Origin: Bacteroidota bacterium
GTDB taxonomy: Bacteria > Bacteroidota > Bacteroidia > Chitinophagales > Chitinophagaceae
Direction: 5' to 3'
NCBI GenBank assembly: GCA_030706685.1
Contig: JAUZOA010000006.1
Coordinates: forward strand, 1-64,000
DNA: 64,000 bases
Shown here: one piece after another, positions 51,308 through 64,000 of the stretch
Numbering within the stretch: position 1 is the first letter of the stretch
Layout of the letters: every line of letters begins with the position of its first letter
Program-made: the position numbers and the translations under genes
The notes under the pieces: generated by a model
The model's database searches: none
What the model was told of the DNA's origin: nothing
Seen by the model: the letters and a program-made list of their open reading frames with translations, nothing else

Positions 51308-53884
51308 TTATTTATGATTAACTCTTGTTTCCGGCGGGCCTAAATAACTGGGCTTCATGCCACCAAGGTCAACCACCAATTTCTGCAACACCACACAGGG
51401 GCTGACCATCCAGAATTTGATTATATGTTTTCCTGTTTTCGAAATGTTGTGATTCGTTGTTTTGATAATGATATTGTTTGCTACCCACCCTTCCCATGTT
51501 CTTACATTGTTGTCTTCTTTATTGATAGAAAGGGTCTGTGGTTGTTCATCATCTATGGAAATGGCATATTTCAATCCATCGTCGTTGTGAAAGTTCAGGG
51601 TAGGGGAGAAGTAAGCGTTGAGTTTTATTTTTCCCGTATCATATACATATACTTCATATTCCAAATGAGGTGAATGGGCGTCAGGTTTTTGTTCAGCAGC
51701 CGTAACGGGGAATACGGTAATAGAAGAACCGGTTCTGCCATGGTCAGGCAACACTTTCCACGTGATGCTGTTTGCATTCACTGCTTTCGTGTAATGGTCG
51801 GATTCTATTGCAACGTAGCCATCCCGTTCGTAAAAAACATTGCCTGTTCTTTCTTTGGGTATAAGTTGTTCTGCTGATTGGGTAAGTAAATTCTCCTTAA
51901 GACGGTCAATGACAGAATCAGCAGACAGGTATTTTACTTCAGGCATTCTTTGTCGCGGGGGTTGCTGCCAGTAAGTATACCCGATATGCGTTTGATCCAT
52001 CATGTGATTCCATTTGCCGTTGGCGATATGGTTATACGCTGCACTGATCAATGAGTCTTTAGCATAAAGTTGCTTCGCAAGTTCTGCATGTTCATTAGCG
52101 AACGGCGATTTGTTTAAAACTTCATAGTGGTTTTTGGCGACTGTGGTATATAACTCCTGGAGGTTTGCACACGCTCTTACCGGGTGCAATACCAATTCAA
52201 AGTAGGCATCGCGGTATTCAGCGGGTAATTCGTTATTTATTTTTTCGGCTTTTGTTAAAAGATCAAACCAGTCGTTCGTCACCCTGGTGGCCTCATCATA
52301 GTTTAAAAGACTATAAGTATTTGCATCCAATAATTCCGGTTTGCGCCTTCCATTATATTTTGTGTATTTGGAAATGATGTCGGCAATTTCCACCGCATAC
52401 TGATCGCCAAATTGATCAGCGGCCCATTGTTCTGTATATTTTTGCAGATCGGCCGGGCCGATTTTATCAGGATTCCAGGCATAATCAAGGAAAAAAGAAA
52501 TAGGAAACTCCATCGGTTTAAGGTCGCCCACATTCACGATCCATATCTGTCTTACATTGTATTCATACGCCAAATGCATCTGTTCCCATGTTCTGGGAAT
52601 AGGATTTGTATTGAGCCATTTGTAATTCCTCGGGCCGCCTACATAATCGAAATGATAATAAATGCCATAACCACCTGCTCTTGGTTTTTCTTCCAATTTG
52701 GGGAGCTTACGGATATTACCCCAGTTATCGTCGCATAATAATAGGGTCACATCATCCGGCACCCTCATACCCTTATCGTAATAATCCTGTACTTCTTTAT
52801 ATAATGCCCATAGTTGCGGAGTCCTGGAGGCCGGTTGGTGAGTTACCTCTTCTATGATCTGTCGCTGGTCTTTTACAATTCTTTCCAATAAAGCAGTCGC
52901 TGTTCCCTGGGTCATCGGTTTGTCGCCATCGCCGCGCATACCTACGGTAACAATACTTTCATGTGTACCCATGTTCTGTATACCTTTTCTCCAGAAATCT
53001 TTCAATACGGCTTCATTGCTGTCGTAGTCCCATTTTCCTTTACCATATCGTTTCCATTCCTGCTGAGCTCTTAACATGGGTTCGTGATGAGAAGTGCCCA
53101 TGACGATACCATATTCATCTGCCAGTTTCGCATCCAGCGTATCATCATCATTAAAAGCATTGCCCCACATCGCGGGCCAGAGATAATTTCCTTTCAGCCG
53201 GAGGATGAGTTCAAACATTTTTTCATATACCAGGTGATTGATGCCTCCGAATTTTTCTTTTGCCCATCCTGAAAAAGCAGGCGCTTCGTCGTTGATAAAT
53301 ATGCCGCGGTATTTTACCCTGGGAGCATCCGTAAGCTTTATACCGTTCTTTATATAGATGGCTTGTTTCTTTTTTACGGGTACATCTGCCCACCAATACC
53401 AGGGTGAGACACCGATCTGCTGTGACAGTTCAGCCACCCCATAAGCGACTCCTCTTCTGTCGCTGCCCGCAATAACCAATGCGTTGGCAATTCCCTTGAA
53501 GGGATGGGCGACCGTTTGTATTAAATACGCTTCCCATTTACCTTTTATATTGTCAACACTGATCTTTTTTTGTTTGACAAGCTCCCGTACCAGGGACGAT
53601 TTTTCCAGGGTACCAATGAGGATAATGTTTTTTCCTGATGCAGGAAGACTGCTGACGATAGTGGGCTTTTTCCCGGTCACGCTTTCCATATCCTGTTGAA
53701 GCCAGGAAGCTGATTTTTGTACCAATACAAAATCGGCCACGTCGGCATAGATTATCGCATTATCATTTGGGGAGACAATGGCTAAAGAACCCGGCCGGGC
53801 TTTATCCGTTATTAATGGTTGTGCCTGCGCTGAAATACCGCAATAGACCGCTATAAGAAACGGCAATACAATCCCTTTGTACAT
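51308..53884 (-). CDS. GH115 xylan alpha-1,2-glucuronidase, secreted
   Basis: VSPWYWWADVPVKKKQAIYI, RVKYRGIFINDEAPAFSGWAKEKFGGINHLVYEKMFELILRLKGNYLWPAMWGNAFNDDD, VTLLLCDDNWGNIRKLP. Confidence 0.95.
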   Translation of the reverse strand: MYKGIVLPFLIAVYCGISAQAQPLITDKARPGSLAIVSPNDNAIIYADVADFVLVQKSASWLQQDMESVTGKKPTIVSSLPASGKNIILIGTLEKSSLVRELVKQKKISVDNIKGKWEAYLIQTVAHPFKGIANALVIAGSDRRGVAYGVAELSQQIGVSPWYWWADVPVKKKQAIYIKNGIKLTDAPRVKYRGIFINDEAPAFSGWAKEKFGGINHLVYEKMFELILRLKGNYLWPAMWGNAFNDDDTLDAKLADEYGIVMGTSHHEPMLRAQQEWKRYGKGKWDYDSNEAVLKDFWRKGIQNMGTHESIVTVGMRGDGDKPMTQGTATALLERIVKDQRQIIEEVTHQPASRTPQLWALYKEVQDYYDKGMRVPDDVTLLLCDDNWGNIRKLPKLEEKPRAGGYGIYYHFDYVGGPRNYKWLNTNPIPRTWEQMHLAYEYNVRQIWIVNVGDLKPMEFPISFFLDYAWNPDKIGPADLQKYTEQWAADQFGDQYAVEIADIISKYTKYNGRRKPELLDANTYSLLNYDEATRVTNDWFDLLTKAEKINNELPAEYRDAYFELVLHPVRACANLQELYTTVAKNHYEVLNKSPFANEHAELAKQLYAKDSLISAAYNHIANGKWNHMMDQTHIGYTYWQQPPRQRMPEVKYLSADSVIDRLKENLLTQSAEQLIPKERTGNVFYERDGYVAIESDHYTKAVNANSITWKVLPDHGRTGSSITVFPVTAAEQKPDAHSPHLEYEVYVYDTGKIKLNAYFSPTLNFHNDDGLKYAISIDDEQPQTLSINKEDNNVRTWEGWVANNIIIKTTNHNISKTGKHIIKFWMVSPCVVLQKLVVDLGGMKPSYLGPPETRVNHK

Positions 53885-53991: not shown

Positions 53992-54744
53992 TCAAAATCC
54001 TACCGAGTTTCCTCCATCAACAGGTAATACTACACCTGTGATATACCTGGCCGCATCAGAAGCCAGGAATAAAGCGGCTTCACCAATATCACGGGGCTTT
54101 CCCATATAACCCATCGGTGTTCTTCCAAATACTTTCTGTTTTCTTTCCGGGTCTTCATTTAATGCTTTTGCTGTCATGTCCGTTTCGATAAACCCCGGCG
54201 CAATGGCATTGACCCGAATTCCTTTTGGTGACAATTCCACAGCCATGGCCCTTGTCATACCATCAATAGCGGTTTTGGAAGCGCTGTAGGCAATGACTTT
54301 CGGTAACCCATACTGGGCCGCCATGGAACTGATATGAATAATGGAACCGCTTCCTCTTTTCAACATATGTTTTACCACTTCCCGTGATATCGCAAATACG
54401 GAACACAGGTTGGTAGTGATCACCCGCTGGAATTCTTCATCCGTTACTTCTATAAATTCTTTTTTCATATTAATACCTGCATTGTTCACCAATGTATCAA
54501 TTTGGCCAAATTTGCTGATCACCTTTTCAATGAATGCGGGAATGCAAGCCAGGTTACTTATATCGCAAATCATCGGGTAACAATACTCGCCTAACTGCTT
54601 TTTTGCTTTTTCCAGTTTTTTCTCATCACGGCCCACGATAACGGTATGAATTTTATTTTGAGTAAATTTTTCGGCAATGGCCAATCCAATTCCTGATCCG
54701 CCCCCGGTCACTATGGCCACCTGTTGCTGGTTAGTGTTCTCCAT
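53992..54744 (-). CDS. SDR-family oxidoreductase (gluconate 5-dehydrogenase/FabG-like)
   Basis: VTGGGSGIGLAIAEKF, NNAGINMKKEF, YSASKTAIDGMTRAMAVELSPKGIRVNAIAPGFIETDM; no signal peptide. Confidence 0.92.
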   Translation of the reverse strand: MENTNQQQVAIVTGGGSGIGLAIAEKFTQNKIHTVIVGRDEKKLEKAKKQLGEYCYPMICDISNLACIPAFIEKVISKFGQIDTLVNNAGINMKKEFIEVTDEEFQRVITTNLCSVFAISREVVKHMLKRGSGSIIHISSMAAQYGLPKVIAYSASKTAIDGMTRAMAVELSPKGIRVNAIAPGFIETDMTAKALNEDPERKQKVFGRTPMGYMGKPRDIGEAALFLASDAARYITGVVLPVDGGNSVGF

Positions 54745-54838: not shown

Positions 54839-57001
54839 TTATAAATTTCCTCCATTCCCCGGCGCAAAAGGAAATCTTAGTCCTTTATAATATTCTAAGG
54901 TATGACCTGGTTTCTCATAACCATCCGGCAGCGGCATTTTTGAAAATGTCTGAAAATACAAAAGACAAGCGTTTCGCCACCATACAGCTTCTTTTTCCTG
55001 GATGGTCAATAACATTTTTACCTGCCGGAATCTTTCTTCATCCGTCCATCCTTCCATTTTATTCCATGTTTGCTGCATCCATTTAGCTGAATCAACGCCG
55101 GAATAATATTGATAGCAAAGCTCGCCCCATAATGTCCTTCCTGAGCGCATGGTATAATTCCAGGGTACATGATGAAACCATAACAAATATTCATCCGGGC
55201 AAGTTTTAAGATTACTCCATGGACCACTGACCGTGGAAGTATATTGAGACAGTGCATTGCTTCCGCTGCTTGTTCTGTCAAAACCAATCCCTATGCTATC
55301 TGCCCTATGATAATAAACCGGGTTCCAGTCTGCTCTGCCAACATTATTAACCCACGGAGCAGGTCCATAATGATTTCCTGTTCCCATGATGTGATGCAGT
55401 CCAAGCGGTGTCATGTAATTCACCATTATTTGACGTGATGCGAGCATTATTTCTTTTACTCCGTCAACAAATGTTTTATTGTTGGTAAAAGTTTGTTTTA
55501 TCCATTCATCAGCGATCTGCGCTGAAGCGAGGTCATGATCCCAGGCTAATCTTCCGAATGCATACCAGTTGGCCTGGCCGAAAGGATGCCCTGTCCAGTT
55601 TCTTTCATTACCGATATTGGCAACGCCTGCGATTCCGGAAATGGAATGATTATCTAAAGAACCGTCAATAATTTTAGCTACAGTTGATCCTTTGCCTTTC
55701 GCATAGGTATCAGCATCTATACATTCTTTGAACAGCGGAGCTTCATAAACCAGGTGCGTAGCCTGGCCAAGGTATTCCTGCGTGATCTGGAATTCCATCA
55801 TCAATGGCGTTTGCGGCATGGAGCCAAACAAGGGATGAAAAGGTTCTCTCGGTTGAAAATCGATGGGCCCGTTCTTTACCTGTATCAACACATTCTTCCT
55901 GAATTGTCCGTCCAATGGTTTGAATTCATCATAAGCCTGTTTAAACCGGTCAGTCGGTGTTTCATTGCTGTAAACAAATGCCCGCCACATTACGATACCT
56001 CCATAGGGGGCGACCGCATCAGCAAGCATGTTCGCGCCATCGGCATGTGTTCGCTGGTAATTTTGCGGACCGGGTTGCCCTTCTGAATTTGCTTTGACCA
56101 AAAAACCGCCGAAATCAGGAATGTATTGGTATATCGTATCCACTTTTTTCTTCCACCATTGCTGTACCTCTGCATTTAATGGGTCAGCGGTTTTCAATCC
56201 TCCTATTTCAACCGGCGCACTGAATCTCGCGGTGAGATATACTTTGATACCATAAGGCCTGAACACATTTGCCAGGGCCGCTACTTTTTCTAAAAATGTT
56301 TTTGTCAATACCAGGGCATTGGCATTTACATTCGTTAATACCGATCCATTGATACCAATGGAAGCATTGGCTCTTGCATAATCTATATACCGCTGGTCAA
56401 TATAATCGGGTAGAGTATGCCAATTCCAGATGGAAATACCGGCATAGCCTCTTTCCACCGACCGGTTGAGATTGTCCCAGTGATCAAGAATACGAAGCTG
56501 GATTTTTGGAACACTGATTACAGATAAATGCTGTATGCTTTGATGCGTTTGCAGTAAACGTAAAAAATAGAATACGCCATATAGAACTCCCATATCTGTG
56601 TTGGCGCTGATTGCAATTATATCCTCTGCATTGCCTTTAGAAGACAATTTTAGAGTAGAGATGGCGAACCCTTCTTCACCCAGAGCAGTATAATCTACGC
56701 CAATTGTTTCCGGGAAGCCGGAGGTTTTTTTAAAGATGACGATAGAATTATTTTTAATTTCTTTTGCTTCGGGAACCTTTTTGGCCAATAGCCCGTCCAG
56801 ACCGGCAAGCAATTCCTGTCGTGCAGCAATTATTGTTGGAGAAGAGCCATTAATTACAACGGAACTGATATTATTCCTGTATTGCTGAAGCAAAATAGAA
56901 TTATCAATTTTATCATAACGCAGCCATAAGCGATAACCATCTTCGGCAAACAGCCGGGATGCTGTCATCAGCAGTATGAAAAGCGATACAATTTTTCTCA
57001 T
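54839..57001 (-). CDS. GH67 alpha-glucuronidase, secreted
   Basis: LDHWDNLNRSVERGYAGISIWNW, ANASIGINGSVLTNVNANALVLT, FLVKANSEGQPGPQNYQRTHADGANMLADA, signal peptide. Confidence 0.95.
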   Translation of the reverse strand: MRKIVSLFILLMTASRLFAEDGYRLWLRYDKIDNSILLQQYRNNISSVVINGSSPTIIAARQELLAGLDGLLAKKVPEAKEIKNNSIVIFKKTSGFPETIGVDYTALGEEGFAISTLKLSSKGNAEDIIAISANTDMGVLYGVFYFLRLLQTHQSIQHLSVISVPKIQLRILDHWDNLNRSVERGYAGISIWNWHTLPDYIDQRYIDYARANASIGINGSVLTNVNANALVLTKTFLEKVAALANVFRPYGIKVYLTARFSAPVEIGGLKTADPLNAEVQQWWKKKVDTIYQYIPDFGGFLVKANSEGQPGPQNYQRTHADGANMLADAVAPYGGIVMWRAFVYSNETPTDRFKQAYDEFKPLDGQFRKNVLIQVKNGPIDFQPREPFHPLFGSMPQTPLMMEFQITQEYLGQATHLVYEAPLFKECIDADTYAKGKGSTVAKIIDGSLDNHSISGIAGVANIGNERNWTGHPFGQANWYAFGRLAWDHDLASAQIADEWIKQTFTNNKTFVDGVKEIMLASRQIMVNYMTPLGLHHIMGTGNHYGPAPWVNNVGRADWNPVYYHRADSIGIGFDRTSSGSNALSQYTSTVSGPWSNLKTCPDEYLLWFHHVPWNYTMRSGRTLWGELCYQYYSGVDSAKWMQQTWNKMEGWTDEERFRQVKMLLTIQEKEAVWWRNACLLYFQTFSKMPLPDGYEKPGHTLEYYKGLRFPFAPGNGGNL

Positions 57002-57020
57002 AACGAAATGAATGCCGGTT

Positions 57021-58058
57021 TTAAAAATGGCTTTGTCTCTTCAGTGATGATTTCCTTATGATCAGTTCTGAACGTACGACAATGGTATTAGTATGTTTGA
57101 GATTTGAAACTCCCCGGAGGTGATTGATAAGGTTGCGGGCGGCGATCTCTCCCATATCCATACCGGGATAATGGATAGTGGTCAATTGCGGTTCAATAAT
57201 TTTACTGATAGCGTCATTGTTAAACCCTACAACGGCTATGTCTTCGGGGATCTTTACGCCATAGTCCTTCAATGTTTGCATACATACAGCCGCGGAGAAA
57301 TCATTGGTAATAAATGCTCCGTCGGGCAATGGCTTCATCTTTAATATCTCCAGCGCAGCCTCGATACCGCATTGTTCACTGAGGTCTTTAATTAACACAA
57401 GGTCTTTTTCAAAAGGGATATTGTTATCAAACAAAGCGTCCATATATCCTTTTTGGCGCTGGGCGTACACATTTCTTTTAAGGCTGGCGGTAACCATCAC
57501 TATCCGTTTACATCCCTGCTCCACCAGGTGTTTAGTGGCCTGGTAGCCGCATTTATAATTGTCAATGATGACTTTGGTACAATCGCTTTTTTCCTCCACC
57601 CTGTCAAAGAAGATGACCGGGATACCCTTTTCTTCGTATGATTTATAATGCTCCAATCCTTTGGTGTCAAAAGCGAGGGAAGCGATCAGGCCATCCACTC
57701 TTTTATGAAATAAGTTAAGGGCATTGGCAGCTTCTTTCTCGTAGCTTTCGGAAGAGTGGGCGATGATTAAATCGTACCCTGCTTCGGTGGTCACTTTTTC
57801 TATACCTGCCAGCACAGAAGTAATAAAGTTACTGTTCAATTCATGCACGATGACCCCGATAGTATTTGTTTTTTGTTTGCGAAGGCTGCTGGCGAATGTA
57901 TTATGCCTGTAACCCAGCTCGCGGGCAGCCTCCTGTATTCTCTTCCTGGTATTTTTATTAATGGCAGGATTATCCTGCAAACCCCGGCTCACTGTAGCCG
58001 AGGAGAGGGCTAATTTTTGTGCGATATCATATATGGTAACTTCTTTTTTAGGTTTCAT
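57021..58058 (-). CDS. LacI-family transcriptional regulator (copy 1)
   Basis: MKPKKEVTIYDIAQKLALSSATVSRGLQDNPAINKNTRKRI; start at 58058 preferred over 58130. Confidence 0.95.
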   Translation of the reverse strand: MKPKKEVTIYDIAQKLALSSATVSRGLQDNPAINKNTRKRIQEAARELGYRHNTFASSLRKQKTNTIGVIVHELNSNFITSVLAGIEKVTTEAGYDLIIAHSSESYEKEAANALNLFHKRVDGLIASLAFDTKGLEHYKSYEEKGIPVIFFDRVEEKSDCTKVIIDNYKCGYQATKHLVEQGCKRIVMVTASLKRNVYAQRQKGYMDALFDNNIPFEKDLVLIKDLSEQCGIEAALEILKMKPLPDGAFITNDFSAAVCMQTLKDYGVKIPEDIAVVGFNNDAISKIIEPQLTTIHYPGMDMGEIAARNLINHLRGVSNLKHTNTIVVRSELIIRKSSLKRQSHF

Positions 58059-58060
58059 GT

Positions 58061-58074
58061 TGCAATCGGTTGCA
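58061..58074. promoter_or_regulatory. Predicted LacI-family operator TGCAATCGGTTGCA
   Basis: CG-centred near-palindrome 2 bp upstream of the LacI copy 1 start; identical 14-mer upstream of LacI copy 2. Confidence 0.8.
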
Positions 58075-58098
58075 TAAAAATCGCAAAAAAAAACCCAA

Positions 58099-59136
58099 TT
58101 ACAAACTTTTGTTTTTTGAGGAGGATTCACGGATGATAAGTTCTGAGCGAAGGATAATGCTGTTGGTAGTTTTTACATTGGAAATACCATTGAGATGATT
58201 GATAAGACTGGTGACAGCCGCTTCTCCCATATCATATCCTGAATAGTTGACGGTGGTAAGATTGGGCTCTATTATTTTACTGATTGGATCATTGTTAAAA
58301 CCGGCGAAAGCTATGTCTTCGGGGATGCGGATACCCGCCTCTTTTAATTTTTTCATGCAATAGACTGCAGCGGCATCATTAGCAGAAAAAACAGCATCCG
58401 GTTGTTTGCCGCCCATCTTTAATATGAGTTTCGCTGCCTCGGTCCCTGCCTCCTCATTGAGCTTGCTGATAAACAAAAGTTTTTCATCAAACTTGATCTT
58501 ATGATCCTGCAGCGCCTGTTTATACCCTCTTAGTCTGTCGGCATAAACATTCCTGAGCAGGTTGCCGCCAATGTGCATGATTCTGCTACAACCGTTGTCA
58601 ATCAAGTGATTGGTGATGTCATAGGCGGCCCTGAAATTATCAATTACCACGCTGGTACTTTCCTTGTGATCATAAATGCGGTCAAAAAAAACAACCGGGA
58701 TACCCTTCTTAAAAAAAGGTTCAAAATGGGCGATATTTTCAGTATCGTAGGCCAGGGAAACCAGTAAACCGTCCACCCTTTTATTGAACATCGTGTGAGC
58801 ATTCGCTATTTCTTTTTCAGCGCTTTCAAGCGAATGGCTGATGATCAGGTTATATCCTGCCCGGTTTGCAACGTCTTCCATTCCTGCCAGGACGGTCGCT
58901 ACGAAATAGGAGTTAAGCCTATGCACAATAACTCCGAGCGTATAGGTCTTTTTGCTACGCAGACTACTGGCAAACATATTGGAGCGGTAGCCTAGTTCCT
59001 TTGCTGCCGCAAATATGCGCTTCCGTGTATTTTTGTTAATAGTGGGATGATTTTTCAAACCCCGGCTGACTGTAGTCGCCGAAATATTAAGATGTTTGGC
59101 AATGTCATAGATCGTTATTTCTTTCTCATCTGGCAT
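58099..59136 (-). CDS. LacI-family transcriptional regulator (copy 2)
   Basis: MPDEKEITIYDIAKHLNISATTVSRGLKNHPTINKNTRKRI; start at 59136 (or 59169). The track's start at 59190 is a TTG inside the operator. Confidence 0.95.
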   Translation of the reverse strand: MPDEKEITIYDIAKHLNISATTVSRGLKNHPTINKNTRKRIFAAAKELGYRSNMFASSLRSKKTYTLGVIVHRLNSYFVATVLAGMEDVANRAGYNLIISHSLESAEKEIANAHTMFNKRVDGLLVSLAYDTENIAHFEPFFKKGIPVVFFDRIYDHKESTSVVIDNFRAAYDITNHLIDNGCSRIMHIGGNLLRNVYADRLRGYKQALQDHKIKFDEKLLFISKLNEEAGTEAAKLILKMGGKQPDAVFSANDAAAVYCMKKLKEAGIRIPEDIAFAGFNNDPISKIIEPNLTTVNYSGYDMGEAAVTSLINHLNGISNVKTTNSIILRSELIIRESSSKNKSL

Positions 59137-59180
59137 ATTTGGGCTTTCTGGTACAAATAAAGGAAGCATTATTTGAAAAA

Positions 59181-59204
59181 AAAATTGCAATCGGTTGCAA
59201 TTTT
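59181..59204. promoter_or_regulatory. Predicted LacI-family operator AAAATTGCAATCGGTTGCAATTTT
   Basis: 24-bp near-perfect palindrome containing TGCAATCGGTTGCA, as at 58061-58074; lies between lacI copy 2 and the divergent susC. Confidence 0.85.
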
Positions 59205-59538
59205 CAAAAAAAACTCTTTACATTCGACTTGCCAATTGCTTCTCCATGCTTGCCTTAACAATTAAAAGATTTTACTTAAGACCAGTACAACCCATGCTCC
59301 TGCAGGGTTTCATTCGATTTTTCTCTTCATTTTTTAATGACTGGTGCACTTATTTTTTCCCTTTTTTATCGCAGGCTCCGGAGTTGAATTTTCAATTATT
59401 GCTGATCAGGCCAGGAAAAACTACCGGCAAAAAGCTTTTGACGGGTATACCTGTTTATGCGAGATCGGTAAAAATTGAATTACAATGGTGAAAATAATCC
59501 GCCCGAATGAAAAACAGGGACTAGCGATAGTCTGTAAA

Positions 59539-59557
59539 AAAGTTGGTTGCCAACTTT
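59539..59557. promoter_or_regulatory. Inverted repeat AAAGTTGG-TTG-CCAACTTT upstream of susC
   Basis: Perfect 8-bp arms, 3-nt spacer, 30 bp upstream of the ATG at 59588. Confidence 0.6.
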
Positions 59558-59587
59558 AAAACTTATAAAACTTTAAAACTGCTGGTT

Positions 59588-62500
59588 ATGAAAGCTTCAT
59601 TAAAAAAGAATTCACTAAGAATTTTCCCGCAGAATCGATCATTGCAAAAAATCATGATGGTTACGGTTTCCGTTATTGTCATAGTTTGTTTTGCATTGCC
59701 CGGTTTTGCGCAAACCATCCGGGTAAAAGGACGTATTATCAATGAGAGCGGGCAGCCTGTGCAAAGGGCTTCCGTCACGGTCAAAGGAGGTACGACAGGT
59801 ACTACCGCCGACGATAATGGAGTCTTTGAGATTAATGCGCCGGCTAATGGCACACTGATCATTTCTGCGGTAAATTTTAAAATGCAGGAGGTTTCTGTTA
59901 ACAACAAGCAAACCATTGATGTCACACTTATTTCTTCGGAAAAAGTAGAAGGGGAAGTAGTTGTAGTCGGTTACGGCACAACCAGGAGAAAAGATGTGAC
60001 AGGTTCAATCGCTTCCGTACCGGAAGCTACATTGAAAGAAGTTCCGGCGACGAATGTTGTTTCACAACTTAAAGGCCGTGTAGCTGGTGTTTCGATAGTC
60101 AGCAATAGCAGTTCTATCGGGTCTGTACCCCAGATTCGTATCCGGGGCAACCGAACATTAACTACCAACTCAGGTTCAAGTGATGCGTTAGATGGTCCTT
60201 TATTTGTCGTAGATGGAATACCCTACGGAGGATTGAATGATTTAAATCCCGACGATATTGCCAGCATTGATATTTTGAAAGATGCCTCTGCCACGGCAAT
60301 ATATGGCTCACGTGGTGCGGGCGGCGTTATATTAATTACAACCAAACGCGGGAAAGTTGGAAAACCAGTAATCACCTACGATGGCTATTATTCAGTTACT
60401 TCTATCCTGGATGAATACCAGGTATTTAACGGCCCCGAATATGCTCAATTCAAGCAGGACGCGGCTATTTATAACAGATCATCACCTACCAGCCCGGGTA
60501 CTTCATCTTATTTACTTACTCAACCTGAAAAAGACGCCCTGGCTGCAGGTATATCAACCGATTGGCAAAATTTAATTTTTCAACATGGTCTGACTACCAG
60601 TCAACAGTTGGGTGTGCAGGGAGGCACGGACTTGACTCAATATTCATTAGGTGCAGGATTTTACAGAGAAACGGGAATTGTTACACATCAAAAATTCGAC
60701 CGTGCAAACCTGCGTTTAACATTGGATCAAAAAATTGGTAAAAGAATAAAAGTTGGAGTCAATAGCCTTAATACAGTTAGCTATACAAATAACCCGGGTG
60801 GTGGCGGAGTACCAGGAGGTTTGGTTAGATTAACACCACTGGCAGCTCCTTACAATTCAGATGGGACAGTAAACCTTACTCCTGCCGCCGGTTCCATTGA
60901 TGCGGCGAACATCAGCCCTTTAACGTTAATAACAAAGTCTGATGCTATATTATCAAGAAGCAGGTCATTAAGAACTTTTAATAGTGCCTATGTGGAAATC
61001 AGGATTATTGAAGGATTAAGGTACAGGTTTAACGCGGGCTTAAATTACAGCCAATCTGTTTTTAATGGTTACTCTGGCCCTCTTACTTATGTTAACAACG
61101 CAACAGTACAGTCATCTTCAAATGCATCAGTAAGTAATACTGAATTTTGGAATTATGACCTGCAACACCTTTTGTATTATGATAAAGTGATTGCCCAAAA
61201 ACATCGAATTGGATTTACAGGTTTGTTTGAGGTAACTAAAGATCATTCGCAAGGAAGTAATTTTACCGTAACAGGAGTTCCGGCGGATTATATTGGCAGT
61301 TACAATTTTGGATTAGCAAGTGGTGCTCCTGTTGCAAATCCCAATAATCAATCTTTCAATGAACAAGGGTTGGTTTCTTATATGGGGCGATTAAATTATT
61401 CGTATAACAACCGCTATATGCTGACTGCTACAGTAAGACGAGATGGTTCTTCAACATTAGCACCGGGTCACCAATGGTTTACTTATCCAGCTATTGGTTT
61501 AGGTTGGACAGTTACAGAAGAAAACTTTATGAAGAACGTTTCATTTATTTCCAACCTCAAGCTGAGAGGCGGATGGGGAGTTTCAGGTAATAGAAACGTT
61601 GGTCCATATCAAACACTTGGTGCATTATCTCCAGGTTATTATAATTTCGGAACCACTACTGGCGGTCAACAACTAGCTTATACAGTAACAACATTGGCTG
61701 CTACCGATCTGGGCTGGCAGTCTACAGCACAAGTTGATGCCGGCCTCGAATTCGGTATATTAAAAAACAGGATCACGGGTAGCATCGACTATTACCATCA
61801 AAAAACAAAAGATATTTTATTGTCAGTATTGCTTCCTCAAAGTAATGGCGCCAATTCTACTTTGAAAAATCTGGGCAAAACTGAAAGCAAGGGATTGGAA
61901 ATCGCGCTTGGTGCCGATATTATTCAAAATAAAGCTGGCTTTAACTGGAGTGTAGATCTGACCTATTTCTTTAACAGAGAAAAAATTACACAATTAACGA
62001 CGCCAGGTGAACTATCTATTCCCGGCAATGGTTGGTTTGTGGGACAGCCATTAAGTGTAATATATGATTATAATAAGCTGGGAATATGGCAAACCGACGA
62101 TTCTACAAAAGGGATCCTGGCACAACAAACTTCACCGGTTCAGTATCCTGGTCAAATACGTGTGGAAGATGTAAATGGAGACCATAAAATCACGGCTGCA
62201 GACAGGAAAATTTTAGGAAACTTCCAGCCCAGCTGGGAGGGCGGTATTACCAACCGGGTTAGTTATAAAGGTTTTGATCTGTCGGTAGTTGTTTATGCAA
62301 GAATGGGAATGAAGGTGGTAGTTCCCTATCTCACCGGTAATTCTACAGGCAGTGGAGGTTTTGCCTTCTTTAATCAAAGCCGCGTAAACCAGATAAAGGT
62401 TAATTATTGGACGCGCAGCAATCCTACCAACGATTTTCCTGCACCTGATGCAGGTAGTGCTGTTGCCTACTTTGGTTCTGTTTTGGGTTACCAGGATGGA

Positions 62501-62794
62501 TCATTTATTAAATGCAGAAGCATTAACCTTGGGTATGAAATCCCGGGTAAAATTCTCTCGAAAGCACGAATTGCCTCTGCAAGAGTGTATATAAACGTCA
62601 CCAATCCATTTATTTTTTATTCACCTTTTGTAAAAGCCGGTTTTGGTCCTGATCCGGAAGGAAATGCATACAATACAACGCAATTATCGCCAACCGGTAC
62701 AAGTGATCCCGGTGCACCGACCAGGCAGATCAGCGTGGATCTTAATAATCCATCCACAAGGCAATTTACTTTCGGTGTAAACTTTAAATTTTAA
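59588..62794 (+). CDS. SusC/RagA TonB-linked outer-membrane transporter
   Basis: Start MKASLKKNSLRIF at 59588 preferred over the TTG at 59543; VKGRIINESGQPVQRASVTVKGG, PQIRIRGNRTLT, DPLFVVDGIPYGG-like plug, TAIYGSRGAGGVILITTK. Confidence 0.95.
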   Translation: MKASLKKNSLRIFPQNRSLQKIMMVTVSVIVIVCFALPGFAQTIRVKGRIINESGQPVQRASVTVKGGTTGTTADDNGVFEINAPANGTLIISAVNFKMQEVSVNNKQTIDVTLISSEKVEGEVVVVGYGTTRRKDVTGSIASVPEATLKEVPATNVVSQLKGRVAGVSIVSNSSSIGSVPQIRIRGNRTLTTNSGSSDALDGPLFVVDGIPYGGLNDLNPDDIASIDILKDASATAIYGSRGAGGVILITTKRGKVGKPVITYDGYYSVTSILDEYQVFNGPEYAQFKQDAAIYNRSSPTSPGTSSYLLTQPEKDALAAGISTDWQNLIFQHGLTTSQQLGVQGGTDLTQYSLGAGFYRETGIVTHQKFDRANLRLTLDQKIGKRIKVGVNSLNTVSYTNNPGGGGVPGGLVRLTPLAAPYNSDGTVNLTPAAGSIDAANISPLTLITKSDAILSRSRSLRTFNSAYVEIRIIEGLRYRFNAGLNYSQSVFNGYSGPLTYVNNATVQSSSNASVSNTEFWNYDLQHLLYYDKVIAQKHRIGFTGLFEVTKDHSQGSNFTVTGVPADYIGSYNFGLASGAPVANPNNQSFNEQGLVSYMGRLNYSYNNRYMLTATVRRDGSSTLAPGHQWFTYPAIGLGWTVTEENFMKNVSFISNLKLRGGWGVSGNRNVGPYQTLGALSPGYYNFGTTTGGQQLAYTVTTLAATDLGWQSTAQVDAGLEFGILKNRITGSIDYYHQKTKDILLSVLLPQSNGANSTLKNLGKTESKGLEIALGADIIQNKAGFNWSVDLTYFFNREKITQLTTPGELSIPGNGWFVGQPLSVIYDYNKLGIWQTDDSTKGILAQQTSPVQYPGQIRVEDVNGDHKITAADRKILGNFQPSWEGGITNRVSYKGFDLSVVVYARMGMKVVVPYLTGNSTGSGGFAFFNQSRVNQIKVNYWTRSNPTNDFPAPDAGSAVAYFGSVLGYQDGSFIKCRSINLGYEIPGKILSKARIASARVYINVTNPFIFYSPFVKAGFGPDPEGNAYNTTQLSPTGTSDPGAPTRQISVDLNNPSTRQFTFGVNFKF

Positions 62795-62812: not shown

Positions 62813-64000
62813 ATGAAAAATAAACACATGACCTATATGTTAATATTTGCCACTATGGCTTTTATTAGCATGGGCTGCAAAAAATTGCTGGAGGAACATC
62901 CGCAAGCTCAAGTTGTGCCGTCTTTTTTCAGTAGCCCTTCCGGTGTTTTAGGCGGAATTGCAGGTGTATACAATGACATCAGGGGCCAATGGGGTACTGA
63001 AGGTTTCGGTAATGAAATGCAGGCTGGCACGGATGAATTTTTGCTAGGTCAGAGCGGCAACTCAATAAGCTGTACTTATAATGGACTTAATGCAACTAAT
63101 TTCGGTGCTGCCTGGGGAGTGGCATTTCAGGATATCAACACGTTAAATGGAGTACTTCAATACGGCCAAACAGTTAATGTTGATGCCACTACAAAAAAAC
63201 AATACCTGGCCCAGGCAAAATTCCTGAGAGGTTTTTGGTATTTCTATCTGGTGCAAAATTTTGGGGCCGTGCCTTTACACACAACTTTCATTACCGTCCC
63301 TTCCCAGGCCGATCACAGATCATCAGTTGACAGCGTTTATGCGTTAATAATACAGGATTTGACAGAGGCGGCGGCCGATCTTCCTAATACACCTACTGCT
63401 CCTTTTCTTGGCAAGCCTGCTACAAAACCGGTTGCTCAGTTTCTCTTAGCAAAAGCTTATTTAACCAGGGGCTGGTTGAATAACACCGCATCTGATTTTA
63501 CCTCTGCAGCGACTATTTGCGCTAATATTATCGCCAATAAAACAACTTATGGCCTGGATTTGTGGCAAGATTATGGTGATGCTTTTGTCCCTGCAAATGA
63601 TTATGGCAAAGAAACCATGTTTGTGAGCGATCATGTATTAGATCCAAAATATGGGTATTATGCCGTCGGTACAGGTGCGAGTGGCGGAGCAGCACAAAAC
63701 CTTAGTCCGTGGTTTACAAACTGGAATTATCCTAATAACAGCGGCGTCAATTCATTTGTAAACGGGTCGGGTAATTTTGTTAATAGCGGTACTTCGGGAA
63801 TGATTCGTGATTCATATTATGGGCGTCCATACATCCGACTAGCTCCCAATTACTACAAATGGCCCAGCGGTCCTAATGCAGGCAAAACATATTTTCTTGA
63901 CGAGGCTTTTACCCAGAGAAGTGATGATTCCAGGTTTGCCAACTCTTTTTATACAGTCTACATCTCCAATACTTCTATTACCAATAGTGCTACCGCGGCA
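62813..64000 (+). CDS. SusD/RagB-family outer-membrane lipoprotein, truncated by the window end
   Basis: Open frame from ATG 62813: MKNKHMTYMLIFATMAFISMGCKKLLEEHPQAQVVPSFFSSPSGVLGGIAGVYNDIRGQWGTEG...; lipobox SMGC; absent from the ORF track because no stop falls in the window. Confidence 0.92.
   Translation, partial: MKNKHMTYMLIFATMAFISMGCKKLLEEHPQAQVVPSFFSSPSGVLGGIAGVYNDIRGQWGTEGFGNEMQAGTDEFLLGQSGNSISCTYNGLNATNFGAAWGVAFQDINTLNGVLQYGQTVNVDATTKKQYLAQAKFLRGFWYFYLVQNFGAVPLHTTFITVPSQADHRSSVDSVYALIIQDLTEAAADLPNTPTAPFLGKPATKPVAQFLLAKAYLTRGWLNNTASDFTSAATICANIIANKTTYGLDLWQDYGDAFVPANDYGKETMFVSDHVLDPKYGYYAVGTGASGGAAQNLSPWFTNWNYPNNSGVNSFVNGSGNFVNSGTSGMIRDSYYGRPYIRLAPNYYKWPSGPNAGKTYFLDEAFTQRSDDSRFANSFYTVYISNTSITNSATAA

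Follow-up and report, generated by a model that had tools for sequence, protein, structure and literature searches.

Two neighboring repressor genes that are each preceded by the same DNA word raise the question of whether both proteins act on both copies of it, or each protein only on its own. Such a pair of LacI-type genes is located in the stretch of DNA analyzed here, which covers 64,000 nucleotides of contig JAUZOA010000006.1 from a member of the Chitinophagaceae (hereafter the window), and the word is a 14-mer, TGCAATCGGTTGCA, found once before each gene (sites O1 and O2). To our knowledge, LacI-type control of Sus loci has been little studied in the Chitinophagaceae, and no description of this tandem LacI pair was found in the open literature searched. 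The features of the locus are listed in Table 1.

Table 1. Genes, operator sites and putative promoter elements at the tandem lacI locus, with positions in the window.
Feature	Position	Strand	Evidence and remarks
GH115 family protein (alpha-glucuronidase family)	51308-53884	-	PF15979 and PF17829; synteny
SDR-family oxidoreductase	53992-54744	-	Family search; synteny
GH67 alpha-glucuronidase, directly after copy 1	54839-57001	-	Pfam GH67 N, M and C domains; synteny
lacI copy 1, 345 aa, second of the pair	57021-58058	-	PF00356 and Peripla_BP_1/3 above cut-off; own clade
O1, operator 14-mer TGCAATCGGTTGCA	58061-58074		In the spacer between copy 2 and copy 1; separated by 2 bp from the start codon of copy 1 (ATG, 58058-58056, minus strand)
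Putative promoter P1	58075-58104	-	TTG at 58104-58102 (the final sense codon of copy 2), followed after a 19-bp spacer by GATTTTTA (58082-58075), which abuts O1
lacI copy 2, 345 aa, first of the pair	58099-59136	-	PF00356 and Peripla_BP_3 above cut-off; own clade
Putative copy 2 -7 element TTTATTTG, downstream of O2	59154-59161	-	Most relatives have a TTnTTTG-like element here
O2, operator 14-mer TGCAATCGGTTGCA	59186-59199		In the region that separates copy 2 from the divergent susC, 49 bp before the copy 2 ATG
Putative susC -7 element TACATTCG	59219-59226	+	21-bp spacer from the -33 TTG (59195-59197) within O2
SusC/RagA TonB-linked outer-membrane transporter, divergent putative target of O2	59588-62794	+	TIGR04056, 794 bits; divergent SusC in most loci
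SusD-like protein	62813-64000	+	Frame leaves the window; follows SusC and resembles the SusD-like genes of relatives

The LacI paralogs and their gene neighborhood

Judged by their domains, both copies are members of the LacI/GalR family, with an N-terminal LacI helix-turn-helix (HTH) domain (PF00356, 52.6 and 42.7 bits; cut-off 27) and a periplasmic-binding-like effector domain (Peripla_BP_1 and Peripla_BP_3 above cut-off). Five LacI-type HTHs are present in the whole genome. The start of copy 2 is backed by its conserved N-terminus and by the distance between O2 and the ATG among relatives. The nearest solved structures by sequence are CcpA for both copies, but the scores of 207 and 194 bits against the CcpA equivalog TIGR01481 (cut-off 442) indicate that they are not CcpA orthologs, and the scores against the curated GalR and GalS equivalogs, 147-152 bits, also fall below the cut-offs of 555-557. 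The two copies are 58% identical to each other. In a tree built from 144 relatives, they belong to two separate groups (52 and 42 members, SH-aLRT 99 each), both of which span many genera, so the duplication was not recent and the two genes are, on this phylogeny, ancient paralogs.

The first-pass annotation, made from the letters of the window, had described the HTHs as nearly the same. The residue pattern that it quoted is present in both, but the likeness does not extend to the positions that determine specificity: 10 of the 34 residues spanned by the pattern differ, including the recognition-helix positions equivalent to LacI Tyr17 and Gln18, which are S-A in copy 1 and A-T in copy 2. The similarity of the HTHs is therefore insufficient as proof of a shared operator. 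Positions that we take to line the effector pockets of LacI and PurR were mapped on the sequences of these proteins from the E. coli K-12 record. Most are invariant and identical in the two groups, including Asp152, Arg153, Asp166, Arg195, Arg201 and Asn281, while three are group-specific (72, 79 and 254/255), which suggests that the two proteins have effectors that are related, yet not identical. At residue 73, next to the effector pocket or the dimer face, the charge differs between the groups throughout the tandem loci: all copy 1 proteins have Glu and all copy 2 proteins Arg. With their last residue at 345, the two proteins lack a LacI-like C-terminal tetramerization tail (LacI residues about 340-360), so DNA looping is not expected. 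Looping by a LacI-type tetramer was rejected on this ground and because the spacing between O1 and O2 varies from 1108 to 1137 bp among loci.

Beyond the GH115 gene, a gene for a GH9-like protein and then more esterase and glycosidase genes follow on the same strand. The order SusD-SusC / lacI2-lacI1-GH67-SDR-GH115(-GH10), where lacI2 and lacI1 are copy 2 and copy 1, is conserved throughout the family. The named relatives, among them Terrimonas, Pseudoflavitalea, Hydrotalea, Sediminibacterium and Chitinophaga, assign the window to the Chitinophagaceae. Given its gene content and conserved order, we read the locus as a glucuronoxylan utilization cluster.

Operator sites in the window and in the genome

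Exact copies of the 14-mer had been reported at first pass, one of them 2 bp before the copy 1 ATG and the other inside a 24-bp near-palindrome upstream of copy 2, and no further copy had been noticed in the window. All of this agrees with our coordinates: the near-palindrome, AAAATTGCAATCGGTTGCAATTTT at 59181-59204, encloses O2 and is palindromic at 22 of 24 positions, and no other exact copy exists in the window or in the genome. A pattern search with TGCAAYCGRTTGCA over all 5,739,888 bp returned exact matches at O1 and O2 only, and the reversed control had 0 matches in the whole 5.74-Mb genome. Allowing up to two mismatches adds a single match within the window (58356, inside copy 2), which is at chance level. 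Genome-wide, one mismatch adds two sites, one of them genic and the other intergenic but distant from the xylan genes. The core AACCGATTGYA has six further matches in the genome, mostly genic, none of which adjoins xylan genes.

Read on the minus strand, which is the direction of the lacI genes, the 14-mer is TGCAACCGATTGCA, an even palindrome with a central CG that is present and conserved at both promoter regions. LacI operators are described as even palindromes with a central CG, with autoregulation in 72% (PMC4052901), and the 14-mer also fits the core of the GalR operator consensus, GTGNAANC.GNTTNCAC, perfectly (PMC5110547). By these features, TGCAATCGGTTGCA is an ordinary operator of the LacI/GalR type (TGNAANCGNTTNCA). 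A slight asymmetry (CCGA center) gives it a direction, which relative to lacI is the same in every tandem locus. The lacI-proximal half alone remains perfect in several lineages, and symmetric forms occur in other genera. That one asymmetric orientation holds universally was rejected, as other genera have the symmetric TGCAATCGATTGCA and some extra sites are inverted.

Conservation across the Chitinophagaceae

The comparison set consisted of 30 distinct loci with copy 2 and copy 1 in tandem, which represent no fewer than 11 genera of Chitinophagaceae. O2 was identified in all 30 loci and O1 in 28 of the 29 that could be assessed; locus L077 is without O1, and the contig of L206 stops before the copy 1 start, so that O1 is not assessable there. 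Both sites are exact 14-mers in 15 of the 30 loci. O1 is located 1-6 bp from the ATG in 28 loci (2 bp in 19), and O2 about 50 bp upstream of the first ATG. The mean pairwise identity, calculated over 28-30 loci that are related to each other, is 92% for O1 and 97% for O2, as opposed to 48-56% for the flanking DNA. Among 200 genomes of the family, 64 contained matches to the pattern, and the reversed control had 0 matches in the genomes listed. Several lineages, including those with copy 2 only, carry degenerate sites.

Since the genes are tandem paralogs, the two sites could be thought a trivial repeat from the duplication, if not a product of chance. We give this next to no credence: the uniqueness of the word in the genome, a site identity that across 11 or more genera is far above the roughly 50% of the flanking DNA, and the reversed control with 0 matches in the family genomes listed exclude it. 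The layout of two repressors on one switch appears to be conserved across the family, while the operator itself is of the ordinary LacI type.

Lineages that have lost one of the genes

Nine genomes from Chitinophaga and its relatives contain copy 2 only (G181, G198, G200, G201, G202, G204, G205, G206 and G207). In all nine, nothing matches copy 1 better than the copy 2 gene does, which means that copy 1 is absent. All of them have kept an O2-like site, located about 50 bp upstream of copy 2, and all have an O1-like site 17-35 bp past the copy 2 stop, ahead of GH67 or the next gene (9/9 for both sites). The sites are often looser in these genomes, such as CGCAACCGATTGTA, or CGCAACCGATTACA in G198. 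The only genome found with copy 1 alone is G208 (locus L203), which lacks copy 2 and has copy 1 directly divergent from SusC, with two exact 14-mers, 228 bp apart, upstream of copy 1. A locus in Flavihumibacter (L202) has two sites (4885 and 4985) before a gene of the copy 1 type, and both have changed from CCGA to CTGA, which gives a TG center (AACTGATT). Such a concerted change would be expected of sites that are read by a single protein, and a copy 2-like protein may be present elsewhere there.

In these lineages, nature has run the control, as there are genomes with both repressors, with the first only and with the second only, on the same operator. They are good indirect evidence, and the best to be had other than from an assay, that O1 and O2 can each be used by either protein. 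The suggestion made at first pass, that both proteins probably bind the same sequence, can be raised to very probably, as both operators are retained where either gene has been lost. Why two isorepressors stay on one switch is directly testable with the same lineages.

Putative promoter elements at the operators

The promoter of the Bacteroidota is described as TTTG / TANNTTTG (PMC6847099; PMC9723704). O2 contains the putative -33 TTG of the divergent susC promoter and would thus be placed to block it. In the direction of susC, a TANNTTYG-like element is located 17-24 bp after the TTG of O2 in 30 of 33 loci, of which 29 have it at 19-21 bp and one at 24 bp (shuffles: mean 1.5, maximum 5). An ANNTTYR/ANNTTTA-like element that ends 0-3 bp short of O1 is present in 31 of 41 loci, against a mean of 2.6 and a maximum of 11 in shuffles. 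The significance of both is overstated because the loci share ancestry, which the shuffle controls ignore. The ANNTTTA-like element before O1 is accompanied by a T-tract, also in loci without copy 1, and many tandem loci have a TTG about 19 bp upstream of the O1-adjacent element. P1 in the window is weak relative to the Bacteroidota consensus, matching about 4 of 6 key positions. We tentatively suggest that the element before O1 resembles an internal promoter with its start inside O1, and O1 with the preceding T-tract/ANNTTTA element fits a promoter-operator unit.

The putative leader of susC (59227-59587) is long, and the gap between O2 and SusC is about 300-430 nt in relatives too. The leader contains a perfect 8-bp inverted repeat, AAAGTTGG-TTG-CCAACTTT, at 59539-59557. 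A search against Rfam gave no match in the region 57000-60000.

A proposed model with two sensors on one switch

With a probability of roughly 0.75, the tandem genes encode the repressors of a local glucuronoxylan regulon of the LacI type, in which both paralogs would act on both O1 and O2. We read the two sites as two control points of this local regulon, served by two sensors, rather than mainly as a roadblock, and its main targets are probably susCD and the copy 1-linked GH67/SDR/GH115 operon, not the repressor genes alone. The auto- and cross-regulation that had been suggested at first pass would follow from the layout.

We infer the course of events as follows, from binding and repression (rather than activation) to the identity of the ligands and the logic of two signals. 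Without inducer, both paralogs would occupy O2, masking the -33 element of susC, and O1, masking the start of the catabolic operon, so that import by susCD and breakdown by the alpha-glucuronidase operon would be off and the repressor genes low. Ligands derived from xylan would then free both repressors from the operators. Two effector domains that have a common pocket core and a few unlike lining residues, placed on one DNA switch, could respond to two related signals or to one signal at two affinities. It is possible, though doubtful, that the pair forms a natural two-input gate, where paralogs sensing different breakdown products of glucuronoxylan compete for one operator sequence and the promoters for import and breakdown open only with both ligands present (AND).

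A division of labor, with copy 1 on O1 and copy 2 on O2 and the likeness of the sites explained by a common ancestor of genes and sites, is unlikely. It would agree with the phylogeny, in which the ATG-abutting site goes with the clade of copy 1 and the distal site with that of copy 2, and with the unlike residues at positions 17 and 18 of the recognition helix. However, an O1-like site persists without copy 1, both exact sites persist without copy 2 in G208, and the 14-mer is identical although the paralogs are ancient, 58% identical, and have unlike flanks. Nor do we think it probable that O1 serves mainly as a roadblock for polymerase that has started at the promoter of copy 2, or as a block of translation by a hairpin hiding the start codon. 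The roadblock had been proposed at first pass from the position of O1 within the two-gene unit, to which its distance of 1-6 bp from the ATG in 28 loci can be added, but the copy-2-only genomes keep O1 beside the T-tract/ANNTTTA element with the next ATG 19-139 bp away. O1 and the promoter-like element outlive copy 1, so a roadblock is not needed, and it may act as an extra on read-through. A hairpin in the RNA around the start codon of copy 1 was rejected, as the fold is weak (z -1.5) and the outer pairs, which variants of O1 disrupt, are not conserved.

That the proteins are activators, as CcpA can be, or an obligate heterodimer on the slightly asymmetric site, is quite improbable. Among solved structures, CcpA is the closest in sequence, and dual activator and repressor roles have been discussed for AraQ/MalR1 and CcpA (PMC6882875), but O2 overlaps the -33 element of susC, which is the position of a repressor. 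The uniform orientation of the sites relative to lacI in all tandem loci and the contrast between Glu73 and Arg73 would suit a heterodimer. Genomes with a single copy nevertheless retain the asymmetric operator and the same state of residue 73, so a heterodimer is not required, and its obligate form was rejected.

Comparison with known systems

GalR and GalS share operators, and the pair described here resembles them in that two LacI-family paralogs act, on our reading, on one sugar regulon. In contrast to the unlinked galR and galS genes of E. coli, the genes in the Chitinophagaceae are in tandem, with an operator between them, in a xylan locus of the Bacteroidota. The survival of both operators after the loss of either gene indirectly suggests that the pair may work like the GalR/GalS isorepressors. 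The cre sites of CcpA have a similar operator core. Unlike CcpA, the pair is not a global regulator, since it has only two genomic sites; a global CcpA-like regulon was rejected on the basis of the two exact sites, the CcpA score below cut-off, and the lack of extra matches adjacent to xylan genes.

AraQ and MalR1 of Bifidobacterium are distinct LacI-type proteins that use the same operators, with auto- and mutual regulation (PMC6882875). They are 26% similar, non-orthologous and active in central carbon metabolism, whereas the proteins considered here are tandem paralogs, 58% identical, in a local xylan regulon. UxuR, UxaR and KdgR of Bacteroides are LacI-family local regulators of uronate metabolism that form a monophyletic branch (PMC3878776, PMC4052901). 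The likeness, which is one of description only, is in local regulation by LacI-family proteins in the Bacteroidota, and no tandem pair with a shared operator was found in the text consulted. The xylan PULs of Gramella flava include an annotated LacI gene (PMC5306329). In synthetic biology, multi-input gates of LacI/GalR proteins have been built on one operator, with AND logic from LacI/GalR chimeras (PMC13056197), which is the same kind of design. The locus offers a concrete glucuronoxylan regulon for the Chitinophagaceae, unreported in the open literature searched.

The layout recurs at a third LacI gene of the genome (L005; contig C214, 1657-1670 and 564-577), with TGTAATCGTTTACA 3 bp before the ATG and TGCAATCGTTTACA between lacI and susC. 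The operator word there is different. The architecture is therefore not unique to the tandem pair, and an ATG-abutting operator is also seen at other LacI genes of the family. Six further loci (L081, L086, L088, L091, L095 and L183) have two operators, the distal one about 56-67 bp upstream and the proximal one overlapping or touching the start codon (TGTAANCGATTGT, then ATG).
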